This document shows, in pieces, positions 3,713 to 19,084 of a stretch of DNA of 20,454 bases; position 1 is the first letter of the stretch; every line of letters starts with the position of its first letter. The translations under genes were made by a program, and so were the position numbers. The notes beneath the pieces are model-generated. The model ran no database searches and was not told the DNA's origin. It worked only from the letters and a program-made list of their open reading frames with translations. Source of the DNA: a virus; the IMG/VR virus record IMGVR_UViG_3300033141_000889, positions 1 through 20,454 of that record; one strand, 5' to 3'.

Positions 3713-4518
3713 TATGCCGCCAGCCTTACGCCGACGAGGTCGGACTGCCAGAGCAGCTCGGTGTCGCCTTTGTCGTGCGCAGAGGTGCAACGGAACGCGC
3801 CGGAAATCATCCGCGACTTGATCGCGAAGCCGCCGCCAGGGCGCACAGCGCCGAGCTGCGACGTGCTCACCTTGACGCCCTTGTCCGCTCGCTCCGGGCT
3901 GCCGATCATGCCGGACGGTACGCTGATAATCGGGGCGTTGCCTGGCATCGCCTGACCCAGGGCGAGCAGCTGAAAGGCGCCGTCCTGTAGCGACCAGCTC
4001 GCCTGCTCGCCGGAGTAGAGCTCGTCGAGTACCTCGTCGACGCTGCCGCCGAAGGTGGGCGGCGCCTGGTATACGCGCTCGGGGATCGGCGCGATGTAGC
4101 CGCGCGCGATAGCATTCGCGGCGAGCAGGTCAGAGAGCACCTGCGTGCGCGTCGTGCCGGCTGGATACGACCCGGCGAACGTGCCGGTCTGCATTATCAG
4201 CTTCCCGTCGGTGGCCTCAAGCGTCGTGATCTGATTTGGGTGTGACACCTTCGTTTTTACGCCGCCCTTGCGAAGCGCACCGTAGAACAATGAGCCCGGC
4301 ACCGTCTCGCCGGCGAGTACATGTAGCGCCATGCCTGGTGTTTCGAGGAAGGTCAGCGACGCCGGGGCGAGGTTGTAGATCTCGACCTTCGCTTTATTCG
4401 GCGTGCTGCCTGCTGTGCGTTCGATATCGAAGGCGATGTATAGCCGCGACCACTTCCGGCCAATGGTGCCCGGTAGGCCGACGTCGATCTGTACGATGCG
4501 CGGGGCGATGCGCATCAT
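3712..4518 (-). CDS. Baseplate hub protein (gp27/gpD-type)
   Basis: A 268-aa protein starting at the first of two consecutive ATG codons (4518), which overlaps the plug gene stop as ATGA. The N-terminal beta-rich part (IAFDIERTAGSTPNKAKVEI then YNLAPASL) is the 'F.i.k....pN.a.i.iyNL' signature of baseplate hub proteins in compact myophages. LEATDGK and the later SGEQASWSLQDGAFQLLALG continue the hub pattern. The hub trimer closes the tail tube and holds the spike encoded immediately downstream. Between plug and spike genes this is the expected position. Family membership is by pattern; similarity to P2 gpD or T4 gp27 would be structural rather than obvious in sequence. Confidence 0.82.
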   Translation of the reverse strand: MMRIAPRIVQIDVGLPGTIGRKWSRLYIAFDIERTAGSTPNKAKVEIYNLAPASLTFLETPGMALHVLAGETVPGSLFYGALRKGGVKTKVSHPNQITTLEATDGKLIMQTGTFAGSYPAGTTRTQVLSDLLAANAIARGYIAPIPERVYQAPPTFGGSVDEVLDELYSGEQASWSLQDGAFQLLALGQAMPGNAPIISVPSGMIGSPERADKGVKVSTSQLGAVRPGGGFAIKSRMISGAFRCTSAHDKGDTELLWQSDLVGVRLAA

Positions 4519-4892
4519 ACGACCTCGATCGTGATCGCTGCTGCCGCCGTCGGGTCGGCCAGGTCGGCAGGCTCGAGGTAGACCAGATGACAGCGGCGCC
4601 CGAGATCTTCGTAGCCGCACTCAACGCCACTATCGCTCGTGTCCCAGATCGCGATGTCGCCAGGCGGCAGCCCCGGGATCTGGTAGGTCTCGAGCAGTGG
4701 CGTGTCGATGCTCAAGCGCTTGCCGAGTAGCAGCGGCTCGTCGGCTGCATCGTACAGATATAGATACCATCGGTCCGTGCGCTCGGCGTAGCGTAGCACG
4801 ACGCGGAACGTATCATCGCCGAGCTGGATCGTGTAGTCGTACTCGGGCACCTGCTCGACGTCGGCGATGTCAAACGGCGGCAGCTGGATCAT
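4515..4892 (-). CDS. Baseplate plug protein, Pam3 gp18-like
   Basis: A 125-aa protein. Of two in-frame ATGs (4901 and 4892) the second is preferred: it overlaps the previous stop as ATGA and has AAGGGA eight bases upstream, which would be almost touching the 4901 codon. The sequence YDYTIQLGDDTFRVVLRYAE, RTDRWYLYLYDAADEPLLLG and LLETYQIPGLPPGDIAIWD fits the baseplate plug family described for cyanophage Pam3 gp18 (DUF6983-like): a small beta protein with 'R...W.l.l.d..g..l..g.rl'. The plug seals the hub and tube before injection. The C-terminus (VYLEPADLADPTAAAAITIEVV, here split by a Pro turn) ends as a strand. Confidence 0.8.
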   Translation of the reverse strand: MIQLPPFDIADVEQVPEYDYTIQLGDDTFRVVLRYAERTDRWYLYLYDAADEPLLLGKRLSIDTPLLETYQIPGLPPGDIAIWDTSDSGVECGYEDLGRRCHLVYLEPADLADPTAAAAITIEVV

Positions 4893-5443
4893 GAGAACCA
4901 TCCCTTGAGCTTGTAGATCCAGTCGGTCTGCTTTGGCGTGCTCGGCTTCGGCTTGCCGGCGCCGGCGCCGCCCTTCGTCGGCTTCGGCGTCGCGCGCTTG
5001 CGCACCGACGGCTTGAGCCTCGACGCCGGGATCGTCGTGTACTCCGGCGCGGGGATGCGCACGGTCTGACAGTCGATCGCGAAGCGCATCATGTCGCCGT
5101 CGCCCTGGCCCGTGTTGGCGTCGTCGGTCGCTATTACCACCTCGCGCGCCCACCAGTGGGTTATCAACAATACCGGCTGCATTGCCGCCGCGACCGCTTC
5201 CAGCGCTGCGTCAGCCTGCGATACGCGCTGTTGTGATACCGGCAGGCCCCACGGCCATGCTGTGATCACGCCCTCGACGCGAAACTTAGTCGGGCCGCGG
5301 TTGCCGAAGTCGCTCATGTTCGCGCCGGCCTCGACGGGCTTGTCTGTCCACTTAACGGCGCCGCGTCTGCCCTCCTTGAGATCGGCATCGAACTCGAAAA
5401 GGATCGCGTACGTCGCAGCGTCGAGTAGGTAAACCTCGCTCAT
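4889..5443 (-). CDS. Dit-like baseplate/tail hub-associated protein
   Basis: A 184-aa protein directly after the tape measure gene, with an ATGA overlap at 5440-5443. The N-terminal 60 residues (KWTDKPVEAGANMSDFGNRG then TKFRVEGVITAWP) match the Dit-like N-terminal pattern 'pVe.Ga.isDh....p..v...G.i'. Residues 75-115 hold a helix followed by a LLITHWWAREVVIAT strand. The C-terminal 50 residues are Lys/Pro/Gly-rich (KPTKGGAGAGKPKPSTPKQT) and end in an aromatic DWIYKLKGWFS tail, which may anchor to the tube or hub. In related compact tails this protein joins the last tube ring to the hub. Sure about the structural role; the exact family name is less certain. Confidence 0.72.
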   Translation of the reverse strand: MSEVYLLDAATYAILFEFDADLKEGRRGAVKWTDKPVEAGANMSDFGNRGPTKFRVEGVITAWPWGLPVSQQRVSQADAALEAVAAAMQPVLLITHWWAREVVIATDDANTGQGDGDMMRFAIDCQTVRIPAPEYTTIPASRLKPSVRKRATPKPTKGGAGAGKPKPSTPKQTDWIYKLKGWFS

Positions 5444-7440
5444 GCTGTCACCGGCACGCCGATCGTCGGTCGGAAGATCGAGAAGGTGTCACTGACCGTC
5501 TTGTCGAGCGCGCGCTTCGTGCCGGCTGCGACCGCGGCCTCGAACTGCGCAGGGGTCATGTCGGCTGTGCCTTGGACGCTCACAGACACCGCGCCGACCG
5601 AGATCTGATTCGTCGTCGCGCCGCCGGGGGCGAGCTGCCTGCGCCTGCCTGCGGCGAGCTCTGCCATGCCGGTGATACCGACCTTTGCCCCGGTCAGGCT
5701 CGCCGCCTTATCGACGACCCAGCCGACCTTGGACGCGATGCCGTCGACGAGCTTTTTGATCGGGCCTAGCGCTGCGTTCCAAGCCTTCGCGATCTGACCA
5801 GCCGCCCATTTCATCGCCTTCACAAGCCAGGTGACCATTTTGATCAACAGGGTCAGCGCGTTGATGCTCGCGACGATCATAACGACGAGCACCTGCAGCG
5901 AGCCCTTCGCCACGGTGCCGAGGTATGGAAGCGCCTTCTTGATCAGGCTCCATAGTACCTCCTGGATCTTGAGCCATGCGAGCCAGAGCGCAGTCAGCCC
6001 TGGCTTGACGGCGATCCAGATCTCGATCAACGCCGCTTGCAACTCGAGCAGCCCCGGCTTGATTGCGCGCCAGACCTGGCCGAGCACTATAACGCCGGAG
6101 GTCAGTGCCGTTTTAAACACCTCGAAGCCGTCGAGGATCACCGGCCACAGCTCGTTGAACAGGTCGCGGATGGCATAGCCCAGCGCGATGAGCGCCGGGC
6201 CGAACTCGCGCCAGAGCGCTTTGTACATCTGGTGTTGTAGGACGATCAGCTTCCAGACGATCTTGGCGACGCTGTAGCCAACGGTGCCGAGCCACTTCAC
6301 AGCGGCGCCTAGTGCGTTGACTACGGCCCTCGCTTTGTCGGCAACGCCGAAATGTTCGAAGAGATCGCCGACTGCAGACTTGCCGCCCTTGCTCCACACG
6401 TAGAGCGATTGAATAACCAGCACGACGGCTGCGACCGCCGCGACGATGAGCATGTATTTCGCAGCTGTTTTCAGGGCTGCGATGCCGTTGATGCGCATCC
6501 AGAACGCGGTCTTTTTCAGTACGCCGACGAGCGTCGTGAAAGTCTGCGCGAGCTTGACAGTGACGATCGCCGCCAGGGCGACCGCGAGAAACTTCGCCGC
6601 TACGCCTGCCAGGTGGAGCGCTCGGCGCAGGTTGTCTCCGGACTTCGCCCAAGCGACGAAGGCATGCAGGTTTTTTGTTACCGCCGGGAGCAGCTTGACC
6701 GCGATCTGATTCCGTACTCCCTTTAGCACTGATACCGTGCGCAACATTTCGTCGTTGTAGTCTTCGGCGATCTTCGCCTCGGACACGGACAGTACGACGC
6801 CGAGCTTCTTGGCCTCTAACATCGCCGCCTTGATCCCCTTGGATCCCCCCTCCAGCAGCACGCCCATCTTTTTACCGGAGCGGCCGAACAGGTTCATCAA
6901 CACCTGCGTTCGGTTCCCCTGGATCCGGCCCTCTTTGAAGCTGTCGGCGATCTCAGTCATCAGCCGGATCGGATCTTTGAACTTGCCGCCTGCTGTTTTT
7001 ATATCTACGCCGGCCCGGCGGAATGCGTCGGCCGCCGCCTTCGATCCGTCGGCCGCGTTGCCCGCGTTCTGCGCGAGCTTCGGCAACGCGACGTTAAGCT
7101 CCTGGATCGTGATCCCGCTCAGCCCAGCCGCGTGTGTCATCGCCTGGTAGGCCTCGGTGCTAATTCCAAGCCCGCGCGCAAACTTCGCTGCCTCGTCTGC
7201 CGCCTTCGCGAAGTCATGCGTAAATAGCTTCGCGACGCGGCCGGCGATGAGTGCCCCGACGACGTGCCGGAAGCCGAGCGCCATCCCCTTGAGGTCGCGC
7301 TTTAGCGTGTAGGCTGCGCGGCTGGCGGCGCGCATTTCGCGCTTCGCTGCACGGGTGTGCGTCTCCACCTTCTTCAGGCCGGACGCATCCGACTTGAAAA
7401 GGATCCGCGTAATGAGCGATCTGACGACGCCGCCTGCCAT
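5440..7440 (-). CDS. Tail tape measure protein
   Basis: At 666 aa this is the longest gene in the window and sits at the canonical place after the chaperone ORFs. Residues 15-100 are basic and helical (KKVETHTRAAKREMRAASRA), followed by the common tape-measure motif SKAAADAFRRAGVDIKTAGG (about 133-152). Hydrophobic, probably membrane-inserting stretches lie near 280-300, 328-347 and 515-535. Residues 450-510 carry an 18-residue repeat (WRAIKPGL and WIAVKPGL). The N-terminus is preceded by GGAG only weakly spaced. Tape measures set tail length at about 1.5 angstrom per residue, so roughly 100 nm here; this is an estimate from family knowledge. No lysozyme or peptidase domain was recognised. 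Confidence 0.93.
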   Translation of the reverse strand: MAGGVVRSLITRILFKSDASGLKKVETHTRAAKREMRAASRAAYTLKRDLKGMALGFRHVVGALIAGRVAKLFTHDFAKAADEAAKFARGLGISTEAYQAMTHAAGLSGITIQELNVALPKLAQNAGNAADGSKAAADAFRRAGVDIKTAGGKFKDPIRLMTEIADSFKEGRIQGNRTQVLMNLFGRSGKKMGVLLEGGSKGIKAAMLEAKKLGVVLSVSEAKIAEDYNDEMLRTVSVLKGVRNQIAVKLLPAVTKNLHAFVAWAKSGDNLRRALHLAGVAAKFLAVALAAIVTVKLAQTFTTLVGVLKKTAFWMRINGIAALKTAAKYMLIVAAVAAVVLVIQSLYVWSKGGKSAVGDLFEHFGVADKARAVVNALGAAVKWLGTVGYSVAKIVWKLIVLQHQMYKALWREFGPALIALGYAIRDLFNELWPVILDGFEVFKTALTSGVIVLGQVWRAIKPGLLELQAALIEIWIAVKPGLTALWLAWLKIQEVLWSLIKKALPYLGTVAKGSLQVLVVMIVASINALTLLIKMVTWLVKAMKWAAGQIAKAWNAALGPIKKLVDGIASKVGWVVDKAASLTGAKVGITGMAELAAGRRRQLAPGGATTNQISVGAVSVSVQGTADMTPAQFEAAVAAGTKRALDKTVSDTFSIFRPTIGVPVTA

Positions 7441-7442
7441 AA

Positions 7443-7622
7443 CTACAGGCTCTCCAGTACGTCACGGAGCGATAGGCCGAGCGCTGTATCGACAACGTGA
7501 ACCATTGGCCATTGCGTTGCTACCGTCACCGGATCGTAGCCTCCTCCTCCTGTTGTAACTCGCCAGAAATACCAACCGCGCCAACCCAGGCCGGGCAGCT
7601 CGGCGTCAAGCTGCTCGATCAC
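7443..7622 (-). CDS. Second tail assembly chaperone ORF (GTG start or frameshift product)
   Basis: The frame following and overlapping the chaperone gene encodes AELPGLGWRGWYFWRVTTGG, an aromatic-rich segment, and ends LGLSLRDVLESL. A GTG at 7622 overlaps the chaperone TGA as GTGA and would give 59 aa. The same frame stays open upstream to 7745, which is in the -1 register relative to the chaperone, so a fused product by -1 frameshift is the alternative, as in the lambda G/GT pair. It lies between chaperone and tape measure, the expected site. No standard slippery heptamer was found in the 127-base overlap, so the mode of expression is open. Confidence 0.6.
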   Translation of the reverse strand: MIEQLDAELPGLGWRGWYFWRVTTGGGGYDPVTVATQWPMVHVVDTALGLSLRDVLESL

Positions 7623-8200
7623 AGAATCTCGGAAGGCTTCATCGCTGCGCTCTTGGGCTCGCTCGGCGGCATCTCCGCTTCGTGCTCCGGGCCGATCCCG
7701 GCTGACATCGCGAGCCCGGCCAATTGCGGCCGCAAATCGCCCCATATGCTCTCGACGAAAGGGCCGTAGTTGACCGTCAGTACCCAGCGCACGGCGTCGA
7801 TCGCCTCGCGTAGGTTGCCGCCGCCGAAAGCTGCGGTGCGCTGCCCGTCGTCGAGCAGCGGTTGCTTGCGCAACTCGCCGCCGACCGTGGCGATCCGGGT
7901 CGTCGTCGCCAGGATGCGCGCGATGAGCTTCGACCCGCCGGCGGCGATGACCCTGCCGGGCAGCTCGCCGAGCGCACCGATCGCCTGGCCGAGCACCTTC
8001 TCGTCGAGGTCGAGCGCTCCGGCGTTACCGCCGAGCAGCACCGACTTGAATGCCTCGCCGAGCGGCCCGCCAACCATCGCCGCGAGCTCTAAGCCGAGGT
8101 CGAAGCACTGGTCGAAGGCGAACGGCACTGTCTCGTAGCGGTGCTCGCGACCGTCGAGGTCGAAGAGCGTCGTGTCGACCGACATGAGCTCAGAACCCAA
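7619..8200 (-). CDS. Tail assembly chaperone
   Basis: A 193-aa protein between tail tube and tape measure. The start is a TTG at 8200, chosen because AGGAGG (8207-8212) lies exactly six bases before it; the in-frame ATG at 8185 would be 21 bases away. Residues 1-45 are strands plus a helix (FDLDGREHRYETVPFAFDQ), residues 50-140 are helical with a Gly-rich centre (ALDLDEKVLGQAIGALGELP), and the C-terminus is Pro/Ser/Lys-rich. This type binds the tape measure during tail assembly in lambda- and Mu-like phages. The gene ends in TGA that overlaps a GTG of the next ORF. Identification rests on position and overall pattern. Confidence 0.68.
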   Translation of the reverse strand: MGSELMSVDTTLFDLDGREHRYETVPFAFDQCFDLGLELAAMVGGPLGEAFKSVLLGGNAGALDLDEKVLGQAIGALGELPGRVIAAGGSKLIARILATTTRIATVGGELRKQPLLDDGQRTAAFGGGNLREAIDAVRWVLTVNYGPFVESIWGDLRPQLAGLAMSAGIGPEHEAEMPPSEPKSAAMKPSEIL

Positions 8201-8206
8201 GGATCA

Positions 8207-8212
8207 CCTCCT
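8207..8212 (-). promoter_or_regulatory. AGGAGG ribosome binding site deciding a TTG start
   Basis: A complete AGGAGG on the minus strand, overlapping the tube gene's TAG stop and lying six bases before the TTG at 8200. The same AGGAGG-N6-start geometry precedes the portal gene, so the TTG is credible as the true start of the chaperone. Confidence 0.75.
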
Positions 8213-8651
8213 ATGCCGAGACGAGATAGCGGTTGGCGCCTTCGGTCCAGCCGCCAGGCTGGATCTCGGCGACGAAGGCCCACGGCACGACGAGCGGCTC
8301 GGTGCTGCCCTTGATCTCCGGCGGCAAGAAGTAGGACGTCTGCGCGATAACCAAGCTCGTGCCCTCGAGATCCTTGATCAGCATCGGCCCGGTCTGGCCA
8401 GGCGTGCCGAGGATATCCAGGGCGACCTTCGCGCTGATTAGCTCATTGATCGGCGATCCCTTTACGATCGACACCGTGCCGTCGTAGAGCACCGCAGGGG
8501 TGCCGCTGCGAACGCTCGCGCCGTGCGTCCCTTCGATCTCAGTGAAGGGCTTGTTGCGCGGCGCCAGCGTCAGAAACTCGCCAGACGCGAACTCGAAGAG
8601 CTGGATCCCCATGACGGTGATCGACAGTCGGTTTGGGTCGAAATGATACAT
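8211..8651 (-). CDS. Tail tube protein (DUF3277-like)
   Basis: A 146-aa protein directly after the sheath gene. The start at 8651 has AGGAG a few bases upstream. The N-terminus YHFDPNRLSITVMGIQLFEF, then FLTLAPRNKPFTEIEGTHG and VRSGTPAVLYDGTVSIVKGS, is the typical opening of phage tube proteins of the DUF3277 type in compact contractile tails: 'y.p..v.....g......g.......r......' followed by a 'G..G...rs...d....i.i.l...s..n..l' strand set. The protein would stack in hexameric rings to form the inner tube through which DNA passes. Its length and position after sheath are both standard. Confidence 0.88.
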   Translation of the reverse strand: MYHFDPNRLSITVMGIQLFEFASGEFLTLAPRNKPFTEIEGTHGASVRSGTPAVLYDGTVSIVKGSPINELISAKVALDILGTPGQTGPMLIKDLEGTSLVIAQTSYFLPPEIKGSTEPLVVPWAFVAEIQPGGWTEGANRYLVSA

Positions 8652-13995: not shown

Positions 13996-14601
13996 TCAAA
14001 ATCTCCTCAGTCGGGCGGTGGCCCGGTGAATCGCCGCCGCTAGCGCGACCTCTGGATTGCTATCGATCGCCGGTGCCGCGGCAGGCTCCGGTTCGGCTGC
14101 TGCGCCTTCATCTGCGGCGCGCTCGACGAGCTCGGCGTACGCCTCTGGGTTCGCGCCCTCGGGGCAAGGGCCGACCTCGTAGATCGCCGAGAAGGAAAGC
14201 ATGTGCTCGACTCCGTCGTCGTCTTCGGCGATCTCCCCGAAGTCGAATAGCATCGACGCGCCGGTGCGTGCCCTGCCATCCATGACGGTGAGTATGTCGA
14301 TCGTCTCGTCGGTAGCGAAGGGAATACCCTCGAAGTAGAGCCCGCGGTCGTCTTCGTGTAGCTCAGACGCTTCGCCGAGTTGCAACGACCAGACGTTGTG
14401 TGACCAGTAGACCGGCATCTGCTGCCCGGCCTGGCGCGCGAGCACCGACGCGAAGGCGCCAGGGTCGATCATCATGCGGCGCTTTTTCCACTCGAACGGA
14501 TCGAAGTACTCGAACTCGTTACCGGTGATCGCGGCATATCCCTGCAGCTTGACGGTGCTCGGATCGACGACTTCGATCTGTGCTCGGGGCTTGAGTGCCA
14601 T
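13996..14601 (-). CDS. Prohead maturation protease (HK97-type serine protease)
   Basis: A 201-aa protein of normal family length. The pattern VKLQGYAAITGNEFEYFDPF, MIDPGAFASVL, MPVYWSHN and EDDRGLYFEG follows HK97-type prohead protease (S21-like fold). The likely catalytic His is H68 in YWSHN and the likely catalytic Ser is S116 in RTGASMLFDFG. SFSAIYEVGPCPEGANPEAY is the usual end of the protease domain, and the last 35 residues are an Ala/Glu-rich tail. It cleaves the scaffold domain of the capsid protein encoded next. Its stop overlaps the capsid gene's Shine-Dalgarno area. No good Shine-Dalgarno precedes ATG 14601, and a hairpin lies 14 bases upstream. Confidence 0.9.
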   Translation of the reverse strand: MALKPRAQIEVVDPSTVKLQGYAAITGNEFEYFDPFEWKKRRMMIDPGAFASVLARQAGQQMPVYWSHNVWSLQLGEASELHEDDRGLYFEGIPFATDETIDILTVMDGRARTGASMLFDFGEIAEDDDGVEHMLSFSAIYEVGPCPEGANPEAYAELVERAADEGAAAEPEPAAAPAIDSNPEVALAAAIHRATARLRRF

Positions 14602-14614
14602 GTCGTCAGGCTAC

Positions 14615-14632: not shown

Positions 14633-14652
14633 AAAAGGGGCCAACTTCGCCT

Positions 14653-14666
14653 GTTGACATGTTAAC
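14653..14666. promoter_or_regulatory. Imperfect palindrome over the -35 box (candidate operator)
   Basis: GTTGACATGTTAAC is self-complementary at 12 of 14 positions, with a perfect ACATGT core (14657-14662). It covers the -35 hexamer of the plus-strand promoter, a position where a bound dimer would block polymerase. The adjacent small protein looks like a ribbon-helix-helix regulator, so autorepression is a natural hypothesis. Inference only. Confidence 0.4.
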
Positions 14667-14682
14667 GGGGCGGATTGATACT
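14654..14682 (+). promoter_or_regulatory. Sigma70-type promoter for the plus-strand gene
   Basis: The -35 hexamer TTGACA (14654-14659) is perfect, the spacer is 17 bases, and the -10 hexamer GATACT (14677-14682) matches consensus at four of six positions including the key A2 and T6. The expected start of transcription, about seven bases on, is at 14689-14690, which is the A of the ATG. This is by far the best promoter I see in the window and it opposes the late operon. Confidence 0.7.
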
Positions 14683-14689
14683 ACCTGGC

Positions 14690-14875
14690 ATGCCGAAAAC
14701 TGAGCACATCCGAGTCAGCGTGCGCGCGTGGTACGCGCTAAAACGGGTCCAAGCGTACGCGCCTGACTACCAGCGCGACAACGTTAAAACGTTCGCAACG
14801 CTGGTCGACGCGATACTCTACGGCGACGACGAGCTGCTCGTGCTGGCGCGTAAAAAGATGCGCGAGACGAACTAG
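14690..14875 (+). CDS. Small moron-type protein, ribbon-helix-helix-like
   Basis: The only credible plus-strand gene: 61 aa, starting at ATG 14690. A TTG at 14675 would overlap the -10 box and is rejected. It has no room for a Shine-Dalgarno; its promoter is spaced so that the transcript would begin at the ATG, implying leaderless translation. The protein runs strand (HIRVSV), helix (RAWYALKRVQAYA), turn, helix (TFATLVDAILYG), then a basic-acidic tail (LARKKMRETN), the shape of an Arc/MetJ-type ribbon-helix-helix DNA-binding protein. Four of its five lysines use AAA. It is flanked by portal and protease on the other strand, the position of a moron. The stop TAG shares the palindrome CTAG with the portal stop. 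Function as a regulator is inferred. Confidence 0.68.
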   Translation: MPKTEHIRVSVRAWYALKRVQAYAPDYQRDNVKTFATLVDAILYGDDELLVLARKKMRETN

Positions 14876-16317
14876 TCGTCGGCGACGATCGCGAGCTCTG
14901 GTGGCTGCGTGTCCTGCTCGTCGTCGGCTTCCTGGTCGGCGTCTTCGTCGGTCGCTTCGTCCGGCTCGGCGCGTCCGGCGATCACGTCGCGACCGGTCGA
15001 CTTGTCCAGGTAGGGCCGCTCCGGCATGCCGAGCTCGAGGTGGTCGTTAATGTCGTTGGTTGAGTACCCAAGGCCCTGCAATTTCTCGCCGACCTCGAGC
15101 GCCGCGAGCTGCAGCTGCAACCCGATGTGCGACCCTGCCAGCGAGTAGAACAGGCGCACGTCGTCGCCGTACTGCCGGTGCACTAGCTGCGCGTTGTAGT
15201 GACCGTAAATCACTTCGAGCACCGGCGCGATCGAGCCGGTGAACCAGAGCACCGTGGCCTCTTTGGTGTTGCTATAGGTCGCCCGGTCGAGCTGCCCGAG
15301 AATGCTCGGCTGCGTGCCGATCGTAGCAATGATCTCGTCTCGCGCTGAATTCTTGGTATCGAAGACCTGCAGCTCTTCGGGCGACCAGCCCTTGATGGCC
15401 TTCGGACCGGAACCGAGCACGAGGATCCCACCGTCGTCTTGCACGCGCTGGTGATCGGCCTCAAGCTCGGCCTTGATCTTCGCGCGCTGCTCGGGGTTCG
15501 GGCTCAGTGGCGCGTCGAAGCCGACGACGATCCCGGGCGAGACGCGGTTACGCAGGTTGTAGCGCTGGCGCTCGGTGGCGATATGATCGATCTCGGTGGA
15601 GCGGAGCGCGGCGCGCAAGGGGCTCGCGCCTTTCCAAAAGCTCGACGGGCTCGGCGCCATGATGTTGAGCAGCTGGTCTGGCTTCCACGTCAGGTCAGGC
15701 TTGCCGCCGCCGCGCTTGTATCGGTAGAGCGTCGGCGCGCCGTAGAGCTCATCGACGTCGGCGCTCATGGAGATCGGCGATAGCAGCGGCACGACTGACA
15801 GCCCCGCGAGCGAGCAGACCGGCACCTGATAGGCGTTGCCGGCCGCGTAGTAGTGCAGCGCCGTCACGTACAGGAGGTGCTGCCACGACCAAAACGGGAA
15901 GGTCTCAGATTTCCCGAGCGGGTCGCGGATGAAATCCTGCAACGGATGCGACGCGTCCTGCATCTTGACCCACCTGCCGCCTACCTTCTCTTGCGCGATC
16001 GGCGTCAACTGCGACATGGCCTTCGCGTTTCCGTTGATGCTCGCCCACGACCAGGCGCTCGCGCGCAGCAGTCGATCGAGGTCGGTGTCGGTGTAGCCCA
16101 TGGTCGCAGGGTATACCGGCGTCATCGGACCTAGCATCGTGTAGCGCTGGTCGACGTCGTCCCACGTCAGCGAGCTGAGCCGGTGCCCGGTCGCCGTCGC
16201 AAGTCCGAGCGCCTGCGTGCTTGCCCGGTGCTCCGGCTCGGCTGTGCCGCGCCTTGCATTGCGCCCGGCGACCCACTTTTTCAGATTCAACTCGTGTGAC
16301 TCGACGTATCCGGCCAT
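14872..16317 (-). CDS. Portal protein (HK97-type)
   Basis: A 481-aa protein with a near-perfect Shine-Dalgarno (AGGAGG at 16324-16329, six bases before ATG 16317). The sequence SWASINGNAKAMSQLTPIA, FWSWQHLLYVTALHYYAAGN, YRYKRGGGKPDLTWKPDQLL and SFWKGASPLRAALRSTEIDH follows the phage portal family, including the 'G.SPL.a' motif. WFTGSIAPVLEVIYGHYNAQ is the usual C-terminal crown-domain helix. The last 35 residues are strongly acidic (DEATDEDADQEADDEQD). Twelve copies form the packaging channel on which terminase docks. The TAG stop overlaps the stop of the plus-strand gene. The protease gene lies 270 bases downstream, beyond that gene. Confidence 0.93.
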   Translation of the reverse strand: MAGYVESHELNLKKWVAGRNARRGTAEPEHRASTQALGLATATGHRLSSLTWDDVDQRYTMLGPMTPVYPATMGYTDTDLDRLLRASAWSWASINGNAKAMSQLTPIAQEKVGGRWVKMQDASHPLQDFIRDPLGKSETFPFWSWQHLLYVTALHYYAAGNAYQVPVCSLAGLSVVPLLSPISMSADVDELYGAPTLYRYKRGGGKPDLTWKPDQLLNIMAPSPSSFWKGASPLRAALRSTEIDHIATERQRYNLRNRVSPGIVVGFDAPLSPNPEQRAKIKAELEADHQRVQDDGGILVLGSGPKAIKGWSPEELQVFDTKNSARDEIIATIGTQPSILGQLDRATYSNTKEATVLWFTGSIAPVLEVIYGHYNAQLVHRQYGDDVRLFYSLAGSHIGLQLQLAALEVGEKLQGLGYSTNDINDHLELGMPERPYLDKSTGRDVIAGRAEPDEATDEDADQEADDEQDTQPPELAIVADD

Positions 16318-18626: not shown

Positions 18627-18818
18627 CTAGGTGGCGTCGGGATCCGCCGCGGCCTTCTGCTTCGGCGACCCCTGCTGCCATCCGCAGCGGGCGCAGTTCC
18701 AACGGTAGGGATTGTCCGGCAGCGGGCGCCGCCATTGCATCCGGCCAGTGCAGCGAGGGCAGGTCGGGCGGCCGGTGCTGAGCTTGCGGCGGCGGTTGAT
18801 TTTGCGGCGGTAGCTCAT
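18627..18818 (-). CDS. Zinc-ribbon protein
   Basis: A 63-aa basic protein whose ATG overlaps the preceding stop as ATGA. CPRC (C20, C23) and CARC (C42, C45) make a CX2C-X18-CX2C zinc ribbon with aromatic and basic residues between (MQWRRPLPDNPYRWN). The N-terminus is strongly basic (YRRKINRRRKL). This is likely a nucleic-acid-binding ribbon. It stands just before the small terminase, where small zinc-binding proteins and HNH nucleases are common, but no HNH motif is present. Function unknown beyond metal and nucleic acid binding. Confidence 0.75.
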   Translation of the reverse strand: MSYRRKINRRRKLSTGRPTCPRCTGRMQWRRPLPDNPYRWNCARCGWQQGSPKQKAAADPDAT

Positions 18819-19084
18819 GGGTCGACGTCCAGTGTCATCGCGATCTCGAGCCCGGCGTTGTGGATCTCGCAGAACTCGCGCCACTCGGCGACGGAATAAA
18901 TCCGGCGGATCGTGCCATCGTGTAGCGCGATGTCGAACGCGCCGAGGCCATAGCCGAAGTGCTCGTCGAGTGCGTGCAGGTCTAGCACCTCGTCGTGCTC
19001 CAGGACGTAGACAGGGATCCGCCGCGGTGGCGGCTCCGCGGCTCGGATGTTGATCACGATGTCATGGTCGTATGACTTGCTCAT
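18815..19084 (-). CDS. Hypothetical protein, 89 aa
   Basis: Not recognised. Starts at ATG 19084 in an ATGA overlap with the previous gene and ends in ATGA with the zinc-ribbon gene. The sequence contains RRIPVYVLEHDEVLDLHALD, then FGYGLGAFDIALHDGTIRR and YSVAEWREFCEIHNAGLE, suggesting a small alternating strand and helix fold with an acidic character. Readings extending upstream of this start overlap the gene before it. It is probably real because of the precise coupling on both sides and normal codon bias. No function can be assigned. Confidence 0.6.
   Translation of the reverse strand: MSKSYDHDIVINIRAAEPPPRRIPVYVLEHDEVLDLHALDEHFGYGLGAFDIALHDGTIRRIYSVAEWREFCEIHNAGLEIAMTLDVDP

Follow-up and report, generated by a model that had tools for sequence, protein, structure and literature searches.

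The presence of a single small open reading frame directed against the course of an otherwise one-direction structural operon raises the question of whether this reading frame is a gene and, if so, when and from what signals it is expressed. The stretch of DNA analysed here (the window, 20,454 nt in length) belongs to a small contractile-tailed phage, whose genes for TerS, TerL, portal, S78 protease, HK97-type capsid, sheath, tape measure and baseplate proteins are all encoded by the minus strand. The 61-aa reading frame in question, ORF61 (14690-14875, plus strand, stop codon included; ATG at 14690-14692, TAG at 14873-14875), occupies a gap of 270 b between the portal gene (14872-16317, minus; PF04860, 1.8e-29), with which it is convergent, and the prohead protease gene (S78; 13996-14601, minus; PF04586, 3.9e-9), from which it diverges, while the other identified gene junctions of the minus-strand operon are mostly overlaps or a few tens of bases. 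Its stop codon and that of the portal gene share bases within the sequence CTAG (14872-14875, both strands). A near-identical contig, IMGVR 3300033143_002119, overlaps the window with 0 differences over 11,632 b and 2 over 4,045 b, and runs 7,955 b beyond it. Elsewhere in the window, an 85-aa ORF adjoining the TerS gene (18627-18884, minus) encodes a zinc-ribbon-like CPRC...CARC pattern and weakly matches a PHROG of a Lar-like protein (E 0.17).

Results of our analysis indicate that ORF61 is very probably a real gene, because its codon usage fits that of the phage's own genes. The per-codon log-likelihood is 0.37 for ORF61 and 0.31 +/- 0.12 for the latter, as compared to at most 0.26 for antisense windows (n=77 in each frame), and the score of ORF61 is the highest among 109 plus-strand ORFs of at least 40 aa, a rank shared by one ORF of 43 aa that runs antisense to a gene. 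The G+C content of its three codon positions is 0.64, 0.36 and 0.79, respectively. An earlier reading of this locus from the sequence only had placed a 61-aa gene here, opposite to the operon, and the coordinates, strand and coding score all agree with that placement.

The region upstream of ORF61 contains a predicted promoter of sigma70 type on the plus strand, which comprises a -35 hexamer TTGACA (14654-14659; consensus match 6/6), a 17-b spacer (14660-14676) and a -10 hexamer GATACT (14677-14682; only a 4/6 match to TATAAT). The latter ends 7 nt before the ATG, from which it is separated by ACCTGGC (14683-14689) as read from the sequence, and no Shine-Dalgarno sequence is present at ATG 14690. 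As judged by the spacing, transcription would start at 14689-14690, and a start at A14690 would yield a leaderless mRNA beginning with AUG; the distance of 7 nt lies within the about 6-7 nt expected of leaderless messages. This is the only promoter site of at least 10/12 in the 20 kb of the window on either strand, with a mean of 0.4 such sites in whole-window shuffles. An equally good site appeared in 0.18% of shuffles of the 88-b upstream stretch (p 0.0018), and a 10/12 site with leaderless spacing in 7 of 40,000 local shuffles (about 2e-4), figures which need relaxing by the number of gene starts, since the site was singled out by a reading of the whole window; even after such relaxing it stays unusual. 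Among the 372 ATGs of the window, that at 14690 is the only one with a site of at least 9/12 in leaderless geometry, and in two relatives (about 80 kb) three ATGs reach 9/12 and none reaches 10/12. All the positions of the promoter elements given by the sequence-only reading thus hold, as does its observation that the ATG lies at the predicted start, a geometry which is real and rare by chance.

Two features near the -35 hexamer deserve mention. The palindrome-like TTGACATGTTAA, considered as an operator, matches in the window only its own reverse strand, and as no second copy is present there, the operator idea stays speculation. A 13-nt imperfect inverted repeat, CATGTCGTCAGGC / GCCTGTTGACATG (14599-14611 and 14649-14661), with a CCGAGC/GCTCGG hairpin inside it, connects the protease start with the -35; the imperfect stem upstream of the protease gene folds no better than shuffled sequences (z -0.9).

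Syntenic relatives, found by scans with TerL and portal alignments, allowed a comparison of the portal-protease junction, as the sequence-only reading had proposed; scans with portal, protease and capsid retrieved only the near-identical contig or a few relatives. The nearest relative (IMGVR 3300022688_000024, 40,476 b; genome G006, locus L110) encodes TerL, portal, protease and capsid proteins that are 60%, 62%, 52% and 67% identical, respectively, to those of the window. Its portal-protease gap of 260 b holds a reverse-strand ORF of 58 aa (P0002), the stop codon of which overlaps that of the portal gene as in the case of ORF61, with TTAG instead of CTAG. The N-termini of the two products are alike (KTEHIRVSVRAWYALK in ORF61 and KTDSIRVRSRTRWALK in P0002) and share the motif KTxxIRVxxRxxxALK. 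When ORF61 was compared with all six frames of the 40 kb of this genome, the highest-scoring match fell on the P0002 slot and strand. The global alignment score of the two proteins was reached by 11 of 2000 shuffled alignments, and the similarity is strong only over the first 16 residues. The codon score of P0002 is weak (0.05 vs. 0.30 +/- 0.12), and therefore the case for P0002 rests on its position and N-terminal match. In five records of more distant relatives (L024/L025, L026, L027 and L031), whose portal proteins are 33-44% identical to that of the window, the portal-protease gaps are gene-free and of 37, 37, 38, 79 and 42 b. Being kept in the window phage and its nearest known relative and missing from the next ones, ORF61 appears to be an accessory gene. 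Its insertion was not very recent, as it is shared with a relative of only 62% portal identity. As a separate observation, the genome of another relative (G002, L106) encodes a PAPS reductase and DUF3440 protein followed by a protein with a ParB_N domain (4263-5968), and a Gp3-like recombination directionality factor family protein (7345-8436), in a record with no detected integrase or resolvase.

The same comparison bears on the way in which ORF61 may be translated. In both the window phage and the nearest relative the conserved N-terminal motif starts directly after the ATG, and the ATG of P0002 is also devoid of a Shine-Dalgarno sequence. In leaderless genes of Deinococcus, a TANNNT -10 motif precedes the ORF by about 6-7 bp (PMC12340547), and the lambda cI and tetR messages are known leaderless ones (PMC4965119). 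Given the position of the motif, the missing Shine-Dalgarno sequences in both phages, the Deinococcus-like spacing and the cI and tetR precedents, leaderless expression of ORF61 is plausible. No TTGACA/GATACT pair is present upstream of P0002, where the best site in leaderless geometry scores 6/12; the end of TGCTACCCT lies 6 nt from the P0002 ATG on its upstream side, a post hoc observation of a pattern found at about 0.4% of ATGs.

An unlikely alternative, which survives best of those considered, is that ORF61 is translated with a leader from an in-frame TTG (14675-14677, plus strand; 66 aa) that lies within the spacer and the -10 hexamer, that its promoter is located further upstream, and that TTGACA/GATACT is a coincidence. 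The TTG is preceded by GGGGCGG, with an anti-Shine-Dalgarno duplex of -7.0 (background mean -3.6), and in the nearest relative GGTGG, with a duplex of -8.0, precedes an ATG located upstream in the same frame (MYALVCYPAR-MEKK...). However, the upstream extensions are dissimilar between the two phages, in which conservation begins directly after the ATG, and a coincidence would require a 10/12 promoter in leaderless geometry of the kind that only 7/40,000 local shuffles contained. With its predicted transcription start at the ATG, ORF61 is an unusually clean candidate for leaderless phage gene expression.

According to its published description, a moron is an individual gene that carries a promoter of its own, separates two genes which are neighbours in related phages, and is usually followed by a terminator (PMC4378225). 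ORF61 lies between genes that are adjacent in the five distant records (270 b vs. 37-79 b) and is preceded by the predicted TTGACA-17-GATACT promoter, while no plus-strand terminator-like site was found near its end. As the published wording is 'usually', the missing terminator lowers, and does not exclude, its membership of this class, and ORF61 looks like a moron-like gene with an unusually clean predicted promoter. The sequence-only reading had gone further and had suggested a moron expressed independently and perhaps in lysogeny. The inserted reverse gene and its own predicted promoter speak for the first part of this suggestion; the part concerning lysogeny found no support. In the searched records, which included two contigs of about 40 kb and may be incomplete, Phage_integrase was absent from seven (the window, the overlapping contig, G002-G005 and G006), Resolvase from six (the window, G001 and G002-G005), and the rve (Mu-type) transposase and a cI-like HTH_3 repressor from five. 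Expression of ORF61 from a prophage is thus not supported by gene content, and a role in lysogeny, in which ORF61 would alter the host or exclude other phages, is quite improbable despite the resemblance of the locus to that of Tab of phage JBD26, which is active from a prophage (PMC10884400).

We consider it probable, with some reservation, that ORF61 belongs to the accessory, moron-like genes of a lineage of small contractile-tailed phages and that it is expressed independently, probably early, and possibly without a leader. The host RNA polymerase could use the ORF61 promoter without waiting for transcription of the late operon, so that expression would be early or constitutive during infection. 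The mRNA would start at A14690 or within one base of it and would be translated as a leaderless message, and late transcription of the opposite strand would damp ORF61 by collision. The product may be a small helical protein that acts on the host, on host defences or on the regulation of the phage, and would be no part of the virion. If so, ORF61 would represent an orphan accessory gene family of one uncultured lineage, in a class from which defence and counter-defence proteins, among others, have been characterised.

Searches of Pfam, PHROGs, NCBIfam, PADLOC and PDB sequences, as well as tblastn searches of phages and plasmids, gave nothing significant for ORF61. Its single-sequence AlphaFold2 model (pLDDT 78) contains helices at residues 11-23, 29-44 and 47-60 and an unstructured N-terminus, while the model of P0002 is helical at the N-terminus; Foldseek found no match to either model. 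A ribbon-helix-helix fold, suggested by eye (an HIRVSV strand followed by helices), was not supported, since RHH_1 (PF01402) and Arc (PF03869) remained unmatched at E<=10 in the window genome (G000) and the nearest relative (G006); with regard to the strand-helix-helix order of this fold, the two structural models speak neither for nor against it. A match in Pantoea genome contigs (L103) proved to be a chance match of DNVKTFATL within a long host ORF, which we take to resemble a tRNA methyltransferase. We give only a slight chance to the further-reaching proposal that ORF61 and its counterpart form a new family of small regulators that bind DNA and which, expressed leaderlessly and opposing the late operon, would act as an early/late switch in a lytic phage.

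A regulatory RNA antisense to the 3' end of the portal gene could also be the main product of the promoter, with ORF61 being incidental. With no terminator after ORF61, transcripts would run antisense into the portal gene, and the stretch folds somewhat better than its shuffles (z -2.6). The strong codon signal of ORF61, the protein-level match in the nearest relative and the lack of an Rfam match argue against this explanation, which we regard as very improbable. That ORF61 is a chance reading frame in a non-coding gap, for which the lack of a family match in any search might speak, was already disfavoured and has hardly any likelihood in view of the coding score, the gap size, the stop overlap and the positional counterpart in the nearest relative.

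Several known systems resemble the proposed accessory gene in part. Similarly to the morons of HK97/HK022 type, ORF61 has a predicted promoter of its own and is inserted between genes adjacent in related phages. Its base composition gives a mixed picture, with a G+C content somewhat below that of the window (59.6% vs. 64.9%) and a third-position G+C of 0.79. Unlike these morons, it has no terminator that could be found, its codon usage is phage-like and not foreign, and no sign of lysogeny accompanies it. With the leaderless messages of lambda cI, tetR and Deinococcus it shares a -10 placed for a message beginning at AUG, although the leaderless start of ORF61 is only predicted; the late genes of the window phage include Shine-Dalgarno-led ones, such as the portal gene (GGAGG, duplex -13.0). 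In Alteromonas phage PB15 (L009, 4275-4797), small reverse-strand ORFs also directly precede the prohead protease gene, but there are three of them, the gene that they follow encodes a minor capsid protein, and the locus contains no ORF61 match; reverse inserts are thus tolerated in the same head-module region of a distant phage. The best anatomical analogue of ORF61 is Tab, an orphan protein of small size from Pseudomonas phage JBD26, whose gene lies on the minus strand among the late genes and has its own promoter (PMC10884400). Unlike the ORF61 product, Tab is of 83 aa, is encoded between the terminase genes of a prophage-forming phage, blocks virion assembly and acts from the prophage (PMC10884400). 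The likeness is one of anatomy, that of a small orphan gene with its own promoter, predicted in the case of ORF61, which opposes the late genes among those for packaging and head proteins.
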